35,170 nucleotides of DNA, from the NCBI GenBank assembly GCA_016866785.1, contig VGLH01000028.1:1-35170 (forward strand). Reading direction: 5' to 3'. Made by a program: the position numbers and the translations under genes. The notes beneath the pieces are model-generated. The model saw only the letters and a program-made list of their open reading frames with translations, ran no database searches and was not told the origin of the DNA. This document shows positions 19,901 through 26,998 of the stretch, piece by piece. How positions within the stretch are numbered: the first letter of the stretch is position 1; each line of letters opens with the position of its first letter. The stretch is from Candidatus Poribacteria bacterium (lineage in GTDB: Bacteria > Poribacteria > WGA-4E > GCA-2687025).

Positions 19901-20614
19901 ATGCTGAGGCAGATCGCCGTTGCGCTCGAAGAATACGATGGATTGCCCGTGCCGATCCAGGGACGACTGCTGAACGATCTAACCGCTGATTGCGCGGCAG
20001 CGATGGGGATCGGCGAGATCGCCGTGATCGGCGACCGGAAGATCATCGCCAACGTGCGCGGTTCGCTGCGGGAGACCGGGCGCGGCATCGTCGGCGTGTC
20101 GTTCGGGCCCCACACGATCCGCATCGACTTCGAGCAGCTTCGAGTGGCAGACGACGGGTACGAGCAGCTTCGGCAGTTGCTCGCGCACTTCGATATGGAC
20201 GGCGACGGCAGCTACATCTGGTTCGTGCCCGACGGATACATGGCGAGCCTGTCCGAGGTCGAGAAGGTCTGGGAGAAGCACGGCGGCGGCTACTTCTCGC
20301 ATGAATCGATCTGCGTGCTGAACACGGCGTCCCGACCGACCGACTGCATCCTGGAAGCGTTCTACGAGGACACGAGCCTGAAGCCGGTGTCGGCTCGCTT
20401 CACGGTTCAGCCGAAGCAGTCCGTTCACTATCGTCTGGACAAGCTGACCGCTGCCGACGGCAGCCCTCTGATCCGCAAGGACGCGCCGACGAGCTACAAG
20501 CTGACGAGTCTGCACACGCGCGTGATCGTCCAGGCGTCGCGGATCCTGACGTCGGGTCGGAGCTCCGAGTTCGGCAGCTTCGGCACGACGATGGCGTGGA
20601 CGCCTGGCGGTTGA
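19901..20614 (+). CDS. Protein with C-terminal sensory-rhodopsin-transducer (ASRT) domain
   Basis: A 237-residue soluble protein starting at ATG 19901, with GAGGAGGG nine nt upstream. Residues ~104-236 match my recollection of the Anabaena sensory rhodopsin transducer family: 'IWFVPDGYM', 'YFSHESICVLNTASRPTDCILEAFYED', 'PKQSVHYRLDKL', 'TRVIVQASRILTS' and 'FGTTMAW'. ASRT was described as the soluble partner of a sensory rhodopsin, but the wider family is proposed to bind small molecules such as sugars. Residues 1-100 form a separate alpha/beta domain ('EYDGLPVPIQGRLLNDL', 'GEIAVIGDRKIIANVRG') that I cannot name. No rhodopsin gene is in the window. The fused histidine kinase gene starts 53 nt downstream, so this protein may be a ligand-sensing accessory of that pathway. 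Confidence 0.75.
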   Translation: MLRQIAVALEEYDGLPVPIQGRLLNDLTADCAAAMGIGEIAVIGDRKIIANVRGSLRETGRGIVGVSFGPHTIRIDFEQLRVADDGYEQLRQLLAHFDMDGDGSYIWFVPDGYMASLSEVEKVWEKHGGGYFSHESICVLNTASRPTDCILEAFYEDTSLKPVSARFTVQPKQSVHYRLDKLTAADGSPLIRKDAPTSYKLTSLHTRVIVQASRILTSGRSSEFGSFGTTMAWTPGG

Positions 20615-20667
20615 TCGGCGCGGCAGAACCCGCGAGCCAAGTCACAGCCCCTAGATGCTCGGACGCG

Positions 20668-23643
20668 ATGATGTCGCATCGCCCGCCGGCTCTACCGACT
20701 CGCTGGAGGATCCGGCACCAGACGGTCGTTCCCTTCGCCGCGCTCATCGTGCTGACGATTGGTCTGACTGCCGCTGCGACCATCGTCCTCCTGAACCGGT
20801 ACGCCGACCGCAGCATCGACCAAGCCCTGAGCCGGATGCTCCGGATGGTGACCACGACCGGCAGCATCTTCGACGCGGCGATGCAGGCGAACATCAAGGA
20901 GACGCTTGGCGCGGATGTCATCACGTCCGACGCCGACGGCACGATCGTGTCGACGACCCTGCCCGGCGCGGACTGGGACCCAGAGACCGGTCGGCAGATT
21001 CATGCTCTGATCCGCGCTGAAGCCCCTCCGAGCTCCTCTCCACGAACTGTCGAAGTGCAGGGCATGACCTATCGGGTTCTGCGGGGATCCGTCCGTCGAG
21101 GCGGGCAGATCGCCTTTGTCACGCTCCTGATGCCGCTCTCGGAGGTCAACCGGACGAAGCGTCAGGTCGCTTGGGCGGTCGTTGCCATTGCCTCGGTCGG
21201 CATTGTGCTGTCGGTCGTCGTCGGGTCTGCCATCGCCCGCACGATCACGACGCCCATCGAAAGACTCGCGTCCGCGACGCGCGAGCTTGCCGACGGCAAC
21301 TGGCAGAGCGCGCCAGAGGTTCGCGGCGCGGGAGAGGTCGTCGAACTCGCCAGCGCGTTCGGTGACATGACCGAACGCCTGCGCCACGCACGCGAAGAGC
21401 TCGTCCAGGCGGAGCGCTTGGCGACTGCGGGTCAGCTCGCGGCGACGTTCGCGCACGAGGTGCGCAACCCCCTGTCGGCGATCAAGCTGATGCTGCAGCT
21501 CGCGGCGGAATCGACGGACGACGAGACCATCGTTCCGTACATCCGCAACAGTCTGGAGGAGGGGGATCGGCTCAACGGGATCGTCGAGGGAATGCTCGAC
21601 TTCTCGCGTCCGGCTCCATTGACCAAGCTGCCGTGCGACCTCGCCGACGTCGTCGAGCGCGAGTACCGCATCGTATCGGAGCGTTTCGCGGATCGACCGA
21701 TCCGGTTCGCGTGCGATGTGCGGAATCGTCCGCGCGTTGTCGTCGACGCCCACGCAGTCGGGCGCGCCATTGCGAACCTGCTGGTCAACGCGGTCGAGGC
21801 GCAGCCGGACGGCGGAGAGGTGAGCGTCTCGCTGGATACCCAGTCGGCGTCGTGCGTTGTCGAGATCGCCGACCGAGGCCCTGGGATCGAGCCGGACGTA
21901 GCGCGCGAGCTCTTCCGACCGTTCTTCACGACGAAGGCTCGAGGCAGCGGGCTTGGGCTCGTGACGTCCAGACGATGCGTCGAGCTGCACGGCGGGTCGT
22001 TGCGGGTCGAGAACCGACCGGACGGCGGCGCGCGAGCTCTTCCGACCGTTCTTCACGACGAAGGCTCGAGGCAGCGGGCTTGGGCTCGTGACGTCCAGAC
22101 GATGCGTCGAGCTGCACGGCGGGTCGTTGCGGGTCGAGAACCGACTGGACGGCGGCGCGCGAGCCGTCATCGAGCTGCCCATCGAGGGTGTGCCTTGAAG
22201 ACCGTACTGGTCATCGACGACGAGACGCGCACCACCTGGGCGTTCGAGAAGTTCCTGTCCGGGGATGGCTACCGCGCGTTGACGGCGAACACGGCGGCGG
22301 AGGGCATCGAACTCGCCCGGTCGGAGAGCCCGGACGCCGTCATCTGCGATCTGCGGCTCCCCGACATGAGCGGCATGGATGTCCTGCGGCGCGTGCGGGA
22401 CCTGCTGCCGAACGCCATCATCATCATCATGACGGCGTACGGCACGGCGCAGACGACCATCGAGGCGATCCAGCACGGGGCGTTCGATTATCTCACCAAA
22501 CCGCTGGACCTGGCGCGCCTGCGAGAGGTTCTGACGCGAGCGGCGCAGGCTCAGCAGGCGCGTGCGCACTCAGCGACCAACGACGTCGAAGCGCCGAGCG
22601 AGGCTTTACCCGCCGTGACACTGGTCGGCGAGAGCCCCGCCATGCTCGACGTCTACAAGCTGATCGGCATGCTGACGACCACGCGCGTCACCGTGCTCAT
22701 CGAGGGCGAAAGCGGCACGGGCAAGGAGCTCGTCGCCCGTGCGATCCACGCGAACAGCCCTTCGCGCGCGAAGCCGTTCACAGCGGTCAACTGCGGAGCC
22801 CTGGCGGAGTCACTCTTGGAGAGGGAGCTGTTCGGTCACGAGCGCGGCGCGTTCACCGACGCCAAGGAGCAGTCGATCGGCAGGATCGAGGCGACGCAGG
22901 ACGGCGCGCTGTTCCTCGACGAGATCGGCAATACCTCGCCTGCCTTACAGGTGAAGCTGCTACGCGCCCTGCACGAGCGGGAGTATCAGCGCGTCGGGGG
23001 CACGCAGACGCTTCCGGTTCGTGCCCGCATCATCGCGGCGACCAACGTCCCGCTGGACATTGCGGTGCGAGAGGGGAAGTTCCGCCGCGATCTCTACTAC
23101 CGATTGAAGGTCGTCTCGGTCAATCTGCCGCCTCTGCGCGAGCGCCGCGCCGATATCCCGCTGCTGGCGCAGCACTTCCTGCGACGCATCGCCGATGAGA
23201 TGGGACAATCCGTCAGCGCGATCGACGGCGACGCCATGGCGCTGCTGATGGCATGCCCATGGTGGGGCAATGTGCGCGAGCTCGAGAACGCGCTGCGGCG
23301 GGCGCTCGTCTTCAGCCGTGGCGGCGTGATCCTGTCGCACCACCTGCCGCCTGAGGTCCGGGAGCCGGTTCCCGGGCAGGAGGTCGAGGGCACGCACGCG
23401 GCGTTCCGGGCTGAACTCGCAGCCGTGGCGCGACGGACCGAGCCGGGGCAGGTCTACCGCGACGTCCTCGCGCTCTTCGACCGGGCGATGATCGAGTACG
23501 GGCTCCATGCGGCACGTGGGAACCAGGTTCGCGCCTCGCGCTTGCTTGGGATCAGCCGGACGACCTTGCGGCAGCGAATGAAGGACCTTGGCATCGTCGG
23601 ACCCTCCGACGACGATCCATCCACCGACGAAGAGACGCCATGA
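20668..23643 (+). CDS. Histidine kinase fused to NtrC-family sigma54 response regulator (fusion caused by 127-bp duplication)
   Basis: One 991-residue frame. Kinase part: TM1 ~22-43, extracytoplasmic sensor ~44-165, TM2 ~167-190, HAMP ~190-245, HisKA with 'FAHEVRNPLS' (His263), and HATPase_c with the N box 'NLLVNAVEA', G1 'DRGPGI' and G2 'GSGLGL'. Residues ~453-509 are out-of-frame sequence from the second repeat copy. From ~510 comes a normal regulator: receiver (phospho-Asp 'CDLRLPDMSG'), AAA+ domain (GESGTGKE; the sigma54 loop reads GAFTDA; 'WWGNVRELEN') and a Fis-type helix-turn-helix. Without the duplication the kinase would end at TGA 22196-22198, overlapping a separate regulator start. 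The duplication's length (3n+1) instead opens the frame into the regulator. The start at ATG 20668 is chosen because an ATG at 20596 lies inside the previous gene. The stop overlaps the pyk ATG. Confidence 0.8.
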   Translation: MMSHRPPALPTRWRIRHQTVVPFAALIVLTIGLTAAATIVLLNRYADRSIDQALSRMLRMVTTTGSIFDAAMQANIKETLGADVITSDADGTIVSTTLPGADWDPETGRQIHALIRAEAPPSSSPRTVEVQGMTYRVLRGSVRRGGQIAFVTLLMPLSEVNRTKRQVAWAVVAIASVGIVLSVVVGSAIARTITTPIERLASATRELADGNWQSAPEVRGAGEVVELASAFGDMTERLRHAREELVQAERLATAGQLAATFAHEVRNPLSAIKLMLQLAAESTDDETIVPYIRNSLEEGDRLNGIVEGMLDFSRPAPLTKLPCDLADVVEREYRIVSERFADRPIRFACDVRNRPRVVVDAHAVGRAIANLLVNAVEAQPDGGEVSVSLDTQSASCVVEIADRGPGIEPDVARELFRPFFTTKARGSGLGLVTSRRCVELHGGSLRVENRPDGGARALPTVLHDEGSRQRAWARDVQTMRRAARRVVAGREPTGRRRASRHRAAHRGCALKTVLVIDDETRTTWAFEKFLSGDGYRALTANTAAEGIELARSESPDAVICDLRLPDMSGMDVLRRVRDLLPNAIIIIMTAYGTAQTTIEAIQHGAFDYLTKPLDLARLREVLTRAAQAQQARAHSATNDVEAPSEALPAVTLVGESPAMLDVYKLIGMLTTTRVTVLIEGESGTGKELVARAIHANSPSRAKPFTAVNCGALAESLLERELFGHERGAFTDAKEQSIGRIEATQDGALFLDEIGNTSPALQVKLLRALHEREYQRVGGTQTLPVRARIIAATNVPLDIAVREGKFRRDLYYRLKVVSVNLPPLRERRADIPLLAQHFLRRIADEMGQSVSAIDGDAMALLMACPWWGNVRELENALRRALVFSRGGVILSHHLPPEVREPVPGQEVEGTHAAFRAELAAVARRTEPGQVYRDVLALFDRAMIEYGLHAARGNQVRASRLLGISRTTLRQRMKDLGIVGPSDDDPSTDEETP
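21901..22154. repeat. Perfect-period 127-bp tandem duplication in the kinase gene
   Basis: Copy 1 is 21901-22027 and copy 2 is 22028-22154. They differ at one base (C at 22019, T at 22146). The ten-base word GCGCGCGAGC occurs at 21901, 22028 and 22155. The ancestral gene therefore had two such words 127 bp apart, and the duplication probably arose by slippage or unequal exchange between them. The repeat encodes the end of the HATPase_c domain, from 'ARELFRPFFTTKARGSGLGL' to 'VENRPDGG'. Confidence 0.95.
22195..23643 (+). CDS. NtrC-family response regulator, alternative separate translation start within the fused frame
   Basis: TTG 22195 overlaps the ancestral kinase stop (TTGA) and has GAGGG six nt upstream, so the regulator is probably still made as its own 482-residue protein even in the fused allele. 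Receiver ~1-120 with acidic Asp8/Asp9, phospho-acceptor Asp52, Thr80 in 'IMTAYG' and Lys102. AAA+ domain ~140-375 with GESGTGKE at 171-178. The sigma54-contacting loop is GAFTDA (218-223) instead of GAFTGA, a variant seen in other enhancer-binding proteins. C-terminal Fis-type HTH at ~445-470 ('ASRLLGISRTTLRQRMKDLG'). It would activate sigma54 promoters on phosphorylation by the adjoining kinase. Its targets are not evident. Confidence 0.7.
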   Translation: MKTVLVIDDETRTTWAFEKFLSGDGYRALTANTAAEGIELARSESPDAVICDLRLPDMSGMDVLRRVRDLLPNAIIIIMTAYGTAQTTIEAIQHGAFDYLTKPLDLARLREVLTRAAQAQQARAHSATNDVEAPSEALPAVTLVGESPAMLDVYKLIGMLTTTRVTVLIEGESGTGKELVARAIHANSPSRAKPFTAVNCGALAESLLERELFGHERGAFTDAKEQSIGRIEATQDGALFLDEIGNTSPALQVKLLRALHEREYQRVGGTQTLPVRARIIAATNVPLDIAVREGKFRRDLYYRLKVVSVNLPPLRERRADIPLLAQHFLRRIADEMGQSVSAIDGDAMALLMACPWWGNVRELENALRRALVFSRGGVILSHHLPPEVREPVPGQEVEGTHAAFRAELAAVARRTEPGQVYRDVLALFDRAMIEYGLHAARGNQVRASRLLGISRTTLRQRMKDLGIVGPSDDDPSTDEETP

Positions 23644-25070
23644 CTCGGAATCAGACGCTGTGCCCGACCAAGATCGTATGCACGCTGGGACCAGCCACCA
23701 ACTCGAAAGAACGCGTGCGAGAGCTGGTCGAGGCAGGGATGGATGTCGCGCGACTGAACTTCTCGCACGGCACGCACGACGACCATCGGTGCAGCATCGA
23801 GTGGGTCCGAGAGGTCGCCCGCGATGCGGGCATCTACGTCGCCATCCTTCAGGACCTGTGCGGACCCAAGATACGCACTGGACCGATGACTAGCGGCTCC
23901 GTTCCGCTGACGGCAGGGGCCGTCTTCACGCTGACGTCGCGCGAGACGCCCGGTTCACCCGACGAAGTGTCGCTCAACTACGCGGGTCTCGTCAGCGAGC
24001 TGGAGCCGGGAGATGTCGTCCTCCTCGCGGATGGGGCGCTGGAGCTCCGCGTCGAACGCACGACGGAAACGGACGCCGTCTGCCGTGTCATCGCAGGCGG
24101 CGAGCTCGGTTCGCACAAGGGGATCAGTGTGCCGGGTCGAGTCCTCGCTCTGCCATCGATGACGGCGAAGGATCGCGCGGACTTGGAGTTCGGGTTGCGG
24201 CACGAGGTCGATTGGGTGGCGCTCTCGTTCGTCCGCGCGGCTTCGGATGTCGCGGAGGCGCGTCGCGCCATGGGCTCGCCGTCGCGCGCAGCGCCGATCA
24301 TGGCGAAAGTCGAGAAGGCGGTGGCACTGGGCGAGCTCGACGCGATTCTCATGGAAGCCGACGGCGTGATGGTCGCTCGCGGCGACCTGGGAGTCGAGAT
24401 CCCGATGGAAGAGGTCCCGTGGGTTCAGAAAGACATCATCCGCAAGGCGAACTTCGCCGGGATGCCCGTCATCACGGCGACGCAGATGCTGGAGTCGATG
24501 ATTTCCAGTCCGAGACCGACGCGCGCCGAGATGACCGACATCGCGAACGCCATCCTCGACGGGACCGACGCGGTCATGCTCTCCGCCGAGACCGCCGTCG
24601 GAGCCTACCCCGTGCAGGCGGTCCGCACGATGAACGAGATCGCTCGCGCGGCTTCTGCTCACGCCCTTGCCGAGAGCCGAGCCCGCGCCGCGCCCCTGAG
24701 CGCTTCGTCCGACATTTCGGATGCGATCAGCCGTGCGGCGTGTCAGATGGCGGCGGCTGTGCAAGCGCGGTTCATCATCTGCTGCACCCGGTCGGGTCAG
24801 ACGGCGAGGAGCGTTGCGAAGTGCCGTCCTCCCATGCCGATCGTCGCTGCCAGCCACCACGAGCGCGTCCTACGGGGCTTGCAGCTCTGCTGGGGTACGG
24901 TTCCTGTGAGGATCGACGCGCCGTCGGATACGGACGACATGGTCGCTAAGGCGAAGCGAGCCGTATTGTCCAGCGGCATGGGTCGGTACGGCGACCGCGT
25001 GGCAATCGTCGCAGGAACGCCCCTATCGGTCGAGGGCACCACGAACACGGTCAAGCTCGACGTGCTGTAG
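23640..25070 (+). CDS. pyk: Pyruvate kinase
   Basis: A 476-residue glycolytic enzyme converting phosphoenolpyruvate and ADP to pyruvate and ATP. The N-terminal 'PTKIVCTLGPATNS', the substrate-site 'MDVARLNFSHGTHDDH', the catalytic-Lys signature 'PIMAKVEKAVALGELDAILMEADGVMVARGDLG', and 'ITATQMLESMISSPRPTRAEMTDIANAILDGTDAVMLSAETA' are all present and in order. The C-terminal regulatory domain follows, without the extra PEP-utiliser domain found in some Bacilli. Its ATG overlaps the response-regulator stop (ATGA), so it is translationally coupled to the two-component genes, an unusual partnership that could tie its expression to that signal. It converges on the ABC permease gene with 21 nt between stops. 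Confidence 0.96.
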   Translation: MTRNQTLCPTKIVCTLGPATNSKERVRELVEAGMDVARLNFSHGTHDDHRCSIEWVREVARDAGIYVAILQDLCGPKIRTGPMTSGSVPLTAGAVFTLTSRETPGSPDEVSLNYAGLVSELEPGDVVLLADGALELRVERTTETDAVCRVIAGGELGSHKGISVPGRVLALPSMTAKDRADLEFGLRHEVDWVALSFVRAASDVAEARRAMGSPSRAAPIMAKVEKAVALGELDAILMEADGVMVARGDLGVEIPMEEVPWVQKDIIRKANFAGMPVITATQMLESMISSPRPTRAEMTDIANAILDGTDAVMLSAETAVGAYPVQAVRTMNEIARAASAHALAESRARAAPLSASSDISDAISRAACQMAAAVQARFIICCTRSGQTARSVAKCRPPMPIVAASHHERVLRGLQLCWGTVPVRIDAPSDTDDMVAKAKRAVLSSGMGRYGDRVAIVAGTPLSVEGTTNTVKLDVL

Positions 25071-26066: not shown

Positions 26067-26998
26067 GGCGTCCCCTCGACGCTGCGGACGAAGAAATCCT
26101 CGAGCGACTCACGCACCGGCATGATCGCATGAACCGACGCGCCTCCCGACACGAGAGCTTGGGCGATTTTCGGAACGTCGGCAGCGTTCGCGACGCGGAT
26201 GTGCAGAACATCGCCGGCTGGTCGCCCATCAGGTTCCACCGTGCCGATGTCGGTGAGCTGCTCGCGGATCGCGGGCGTGAGACCGGCGGCTCGCACTTCG
26301 ACACGCGCTCCAGTGTTGAGCAACTCGCCGACGGTGCCCTGTCGCGTCAGACGACCGCGATGGAGGATCGCGACGCGATCGCAGCAGAGCTCGATCTCGG
26401 TCAGCAGATGGGAGTTCAGGAACACCGTCTTGCCAGCCTTCTTCAGCCGGAGAAGGATGCTGCGCACGTCGCGTCTGCCGAGAGGGTCCAGCGCCGACGT
26501 GGGCTCGTCGAGGATGATCAGGTCAGGGCCCGGCAGCAGTGCCTGCGCCAACCCGACGCGCTGCTGCATGCCCTTCGAGAAGCCGCGGATGGGGCGGTCG
26601 GCAGCGGACGACAAGCCGACGGTTTCCAGCACCTCGTCGATGCGCCCCGCGAGTCGCTGTGACTTCATCCCGGACAGCTTGCCGTGGAACCGAAGAAGCT
26701 CGCGCGCCGTCAGGAACTCGTGGAATCGGAACTTCTCCGGCAGGAACCCGACGCGTCGGCGCGACGCCGGGTCGCCCAAAGGACTACCGAACAGCCACCC
26801 AGTGCCGCTGGTGGGGTGGACGGCTCCCAGGAGCATCATGACGGCGGTGGTCTTGCCGGCTCCGTTCAATCCCAGGAACCCGAACACCTCGCCTTCGGGG
26901 ACATCGAGAGTGAGGTCGTCGACAGCCGTGACGGCTCGCTTCCTCCAGCCGCCGCCGTAGACTTTCCGGAGATGCTCGGAACGGATGGCGCTGGGCAT
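26063..26998 (-). CDS. ABC transporter ATP-binding protein (ABC-2 exporter type)
   Basis: A 311-residue ATPase that pairs with the overlapping permease gene. Walker A is 'GLNGAGKTT' (~44-52), the signature is 'FSKGMQQRVGLAQAL' (~139-153), Walker B is 'LIILDEPTSALDPLGRRDV' (~160-178), and the switch His is in 'FLNSHLLTEIE'. The C-terminal ~85 residues form the extra domain common in CcmA/NatA/NosF-like ATPases. The start is ATG 26998. The Shine-Dalgarno sequence is weak, but the gene lies only 15 nt after trkA, so coupling is likely. The function of the exporter is not revealed by the neighbouring ion transporters. Confidence 0.92.
   Translation of the reverse strand: MPSAIRSEHLRKVYGGGWRKRAVTAVDDLTLDVPEGEVFGFLGLNGAGKTTAVMMLLGAVHPTSGTGWLFGSPLGDPASRRRVGFLPEKFRFHEFLTARELLRFHGKLSGMKSQRLAGRIDEVLETVGLSSAADRPIRGFSKGMQQRVGLAQALLPGPDLIILDEPTSALDPLGRRDVRSILLRLKKAGKTVFLNSHLLTEIELCCDRVAILHRGRLTRQGTVGELLNTGARVEVRAAGLTPAIREQLTDIGTVEPDGRPAGDVLHIRVANAADVPKIAQALVSGGASVHAIMPVRESLEDFFVRSVEGTP

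Follow-up and report, generated by a model that had tools for sequence, protein, structure and literature searches.

Does a sensor kinase really continue into its response regulator in this bacterium, or does the fusion come from the way in which the genome was assembled? In the window, i.e., the whole stretch of 35,170 nucleotides that was analysed, which makes up the entire contig C28 of a 4.35-Mb draft consisting of 291 contigs, a single open reading frame (20596-23643) crosses the kinase and the regulator genes. The two are joined on paper in this one frame via a tandem duplication, whose parts, all on the plus strand, are as follows.

20668-22027, plus strand: sensor histidine kinase, through repeat copy 1 (Pfam matches; alignment with the L004 and L005 kinases)
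21901-22027, plus strand: repeat copy 1, with allele C at 22019 (tandem-repeat finding and sequence comparison)
21901-21910, plus strand: first occurrence of the 10-bp word GCGCGCGAGC, coding ARE of the F-box region VARELFRPFF
22028-22154, plus strand: repeat copy 2, with allele T at 22146, read by the fused frame in the +1 frame
22028-22037, plus strand: second occurrence of GCGCGCGAGC, with the duplication junction inside the word or at its edges
22155-22164, plus strand: third occurrence of GCGCGCGAGC, coding GARA of the kinase tail ENRxDGGARAVIELPIEGVP
22155-22198, plus strand: original 3' end of the kinase, i.e., its last strand and the TGA at 22196-22198, out of frame as assembled
22195-23643, plus strand: NtrC-type sigma-54 response regulator with receiver, AAA+ and Fis-type HTH domains (Pfam, NCBIfam)

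Tandem-repeat finding (TRF score 521, 99% matches) gave a repeat of period 127 that spans 21901-22164, the periodicity continuing 10 bases past copy 2. The copies differ by a single mismatch (22019 C, 22146 T), which corresponds to one per 137 aligned bases. These data confirm the preliminary description of two 127-bp copies with one mismatch and a ten-base word occurring three times at a spacing of 127 bp. The word GCGCGCGAGC is a short direct repeat present at both ends of the duplication and at the junction, and the window has only one further occurrence of it, at 26698 on the minus strand. The copy 1-copy 2 junction is the unique sequence GACGGCGGCGCGCGAGCTCTTCC, and the likeness between the copies also reaches upstream of the words (CCGGACG; 151-bp alignment). 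The mismatch is nonsynonymous (P/L) in the kinase frame and synonymous (ACC/ACT) in the fused frame.

A portion of 2.48 Mb of the draft (57%), with 203 contig ends, was examined. In this portion the 127-bp repeat was the only frame-shifting tandem duplication with at least 97% identity and a period of 30-1000, and it is far above chance. Only two other tandem repeats reached this identity; both are in frame, with lengths of 36 and 33 bp. A systematic artefact producing many 127-bp duplications was rejected, since no other was present in the 2.48 Mb. Arrays with a period of 126 bp and lower identity, likewise in frame (42 residues), were found in L069 (11-338), L115 (1173-2100), L122 (10179-10450) and L176 (7822-8516). 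These probably encode repeat proteins and, although near to the 127-bp duplication in length, are unrelated to it.

The kinase contains HAMP, HisKA (with the His of FAHEVRNP) and HATPase_c domains, the last with N, G1 and G2 boxes. Matches above the cut-off to both PF00512 and PF02518 identify it as a two-component kinase, and matches to PF00072 (Response_reg), PF00158 (Sigma54_activat) and PF02954 (HTH_8) identify the regulator. NCBIfam scores were under the curated equivalog cut-offs, so that no specific function can be named. The anatomy of the fusion given in the preliminary description was correct: the duplication of 127 bp shifts the kinase frame, the open frame enters the regulator, the catalytic motifs H, N, G1 and G2 are kept, and the regulator retains its own TTG (22195) in frame with the fusion. 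This TTG overlaps the kinase TGA (TTGA). The HATPase_c match covers profile positions 2-102 of 111 and is truncated at its end. Without the duplication the kinase frame would finish ...ENRxDGGARAVIELPIEGVP*, and copy 2 read in the original kinase frame gives the normal kinase tail. In the fused frame about 53 Arg-rich out-of-frame residues lie between kinase and regulator. Because the last ATPase strand is lost and these residues are gained before the receiver, an impaired kinase would be expected if the duplication is real, rather than a useful hybrid. Antisense to the kinase there is a 625-aa open frame (minus strand, 20692-22569), a shadow frame of the kind typical at 65% G+C, for which no gene evidence was obtained.

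No genome from the species or genus itself was found, and the nearest were five from its family. The family relatives L003, L004, L005 and L007 each encode the kinase in a frame that does not include the regulator. The kinase stop in L004 and L005 overlaps the regulator ATG (ATGA), the regulator starting at the same place as that of the window, and the L007 kinase likewise ends just ahead of an ATG. The window kinase tail can be aligned with the L004 and L005 kinases as far as NRxDGGAR; beyond this point the frame switch in the window makes the sequences differ. Neither the duplication nor the 10-bp repeat pair was present in the family relatives in which the junction was readable; no direct repeat at the corresponding site of L004, L005 and L007 exceeded 6-7 bp. 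By a motif-based check, neither the relatives nor the 22 loci from genome contigs had a kinase fused to a regulator, and a conserved family of fused kinase-regulators was therefore rejected. As expected, the junction had no match among viral contigs. From the separate kinases and the lack of a repeat pair and of a fused frame in these sequences, the ancestral state would most simply be two genes with one copy. Directly behind the regulator lies a pyruvate kinase-like frame (23640-25070), and the same kind of frame (RRAKIVCTLGPASS...) follows the regulator in L004 and L005, so that the family has a conserved kinase-regulator-pyk order.

The preliminary description had proposed that kinase and NtrC-type regulator form a working hybrid, or that slippage reversibly switches the locus between separate and fused proteins. 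The frame open across both proteins, the retained H, N, G1 and G2 motifs and the regulator start kept in frame are in keeping with this proposal, which is nevertheless very improbable: the last ATPase strand is replaced by out-of-frame residues, no fused relative was found, the 10-bp repeat pair is not conserved, and a single event is known from one assembly. Among the family relatives and the loci fetched, neither a conserved repeat nor the occurrence of both states was seen. Both states would have to coexist in one population for a switch to operate, and since only one assembled molecule is known, the switch is without support; the relatives, neither duplicated nor fused at this locus, lend it no comparative support either. 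Least probable of all is the specific case in which the duplication is real and segregating in the population, slippage at the 10-bp word toggling between two proteins and a fused hybrid.

The ends of the contigs indicate how the assembly was made. The ends of contigs L083 and L131 are identical over exactly 127 bp. Among the 203 contig ends there were 19 end overlaps of at least 100 bp, 11 of which had a mismatch exactly 126-127 bases from an end, while the other eight had none at that distance. The exact shared end and the position of these mismatches establish that the final assembly k was 127. The end overlaps contained 96 mismatches in 5807 bases (1.65%), which we read as a sign of at least two co-assembled strains. 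Bases 1-265 of the window itself match, apart from two mismatches at window positions 42 and 139, the beginning of contig C96 (L050/L101, reverse complement); this overlap marks strain variation, and the two contigs should be joined. It has been reported that "illusionary contiguity" can result from a k set ending in 127 and that SPAdes contigs have frequent problems and near-duplicates at their ends (PMC8172020). In addition, spurious pseudogenes occur in low-coverage assemblies, their number being 1 per Mb or more at coverages of 10-fold and below (PMC11017572). No direct description of a case like the present one was found in the literature on gap-closing artefacts.

These properties suggest, at somewhat better than even probability, that the duplication is an assembly artefact in which the versions of a single stretch from two strains were placed one after the other and not merged. 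The period of the repeat is exactly equal to k, and the frequency of mismatches in the duplication (1/137) fits the strain-level frequency in the end overlaps. No 127-mer occurs twice in the duplication, while 20 99-mers do, so that it is only at the last k that the copies become distinct. The many unmerged strain overlaps of 127 bases or longer in this assembly and the kinases encoded on their own in L003, L004, L005 and L007 point in the same direction. At 1.7% the single mismatch fits strain mixing but is no proof of it. Several observations count against an artefact. The mismatch is located 118 bases from the start of copy 2, not 126-127, so that the usual bubble mark is absent, and no second within-contig duplication of this kind occurred in the 57% of the genome examined. 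Furthermore, the chance of a 10-bp extension at a blind end-to-end join, determined empirically for this genome, is 7.8e-6. Plain concatenation of k-overlapping contigs as the sole cause was rejected on this figure and on the difference between the copies. The join must therefore have used the 10-bp word, either in an assembler step accepting overlaps of about 10 bp or in real slippage. Common assemblers probably include joining steps of the former kind.

The latter explanation, an ordinary tandem duplication that arose in at least one strain by replication slippage at, or illegitimate recombination between, two 10-bp words with a spacing of 127 bp, is a serious possibility of somewhat below even probability. 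It would have frameshifted the 3' end of the kinase, one substitution being acquired later or recombined in, and would amount to an unstable loss or alteration of the kinase, while the regulator would continue to be produced, either as a fused tail or from its own TTG. The order word-unit-word-unit-word is the exact footprint of slippage at a 10-bp repeat, and both the upstream extension of the similarity and the very low probability of a blind join with the 10-bp extension argue for such an event. Since the mismatch makes all 127-mers unique, assembly at k=127 would also preserve a true duplication. That the mismatch changes the kinase frame and is silent in the fused frame is a weak point in the same direction. 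On the other hand, the agreement of period and k would then be a coincidence of the order of 1 in a few hundred by our own estimate, and the duplication was not seen in the relatives. Perfect 127-bp tandem repeats collapse much faster than substitutions accrue, and a mismatch between the copies would accordingly be unexpected without selection. The evidence for an artefact and that for a real duplication thus nearly balance, the former being slightly favoured and the latter including a very small share for anything functional. Misassembly of two strains, offered as an alternative in the preliminary description, is now the better-supported reading in view of k=127, the strain-variant end overlaps and the period equal to k, and on balance the duplicated feature is slightly more likely to be absent from the organism than present.

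If the duplication is an artefact, the following course may be proposed. The short-read-type draft, with its final k of 127, would have been built from at least two co-occurring strains. The tip of the strain with the C allele would end in the word at 22028-22037, and the T-allele tip of the other strain would begin with the word at 21901-21910. The two tips would truly overlap by 137 bases but would remain unmerged because the mismatch leaves no common 127-mer. A later joining step would then have taken the 10-bp identity instead, so that 127 bases were written twice; we infer both this step and its action on these particular two tips. The two-component pair of the real cells would then be an ordinary one, in which the TGA of a membrane sensor kinase gene overlaps the TTG of the gene for an NtrC-type regulator.

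An artefact of this type would show that an overlap between strains, one k in length, can give a draft genome a fused gene that looks convincing, and would be a reason to distrust any tandem repeat with a period equal to the assembler k. A real duplication would be an ordinary slippage event damaging a kinase, notable only given a proven two-state population.

In domain order and in the neighbouring position of the genes, the pair in the window is the same as NtrB/NtrC-, AtoS/AtoC- and ZraS/ZraR-type pairs. By NCBIfam the regulator is nearest to ntrC/atoC and the kinase is near AtoS/ZraS. In contrast to these pairs, the two genes of the window are joined by the duplication. Bacterial tandem duplications formed between short direct repeats by slippage or RecA-independent recombination have the same short repeat at the ends and at the junction, whereas the copies in the window already differ at one base and are known here from one assembly. 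In strain-variant contig-end overlaps of k=127 metagenome assemblies, one stretch is likewise present twice, with about 1-2% mismatches and a length near k; unlike these overlaps, the copies in the window follow each other head to tail within a single contig, with the 10-bp word at their meeting point.
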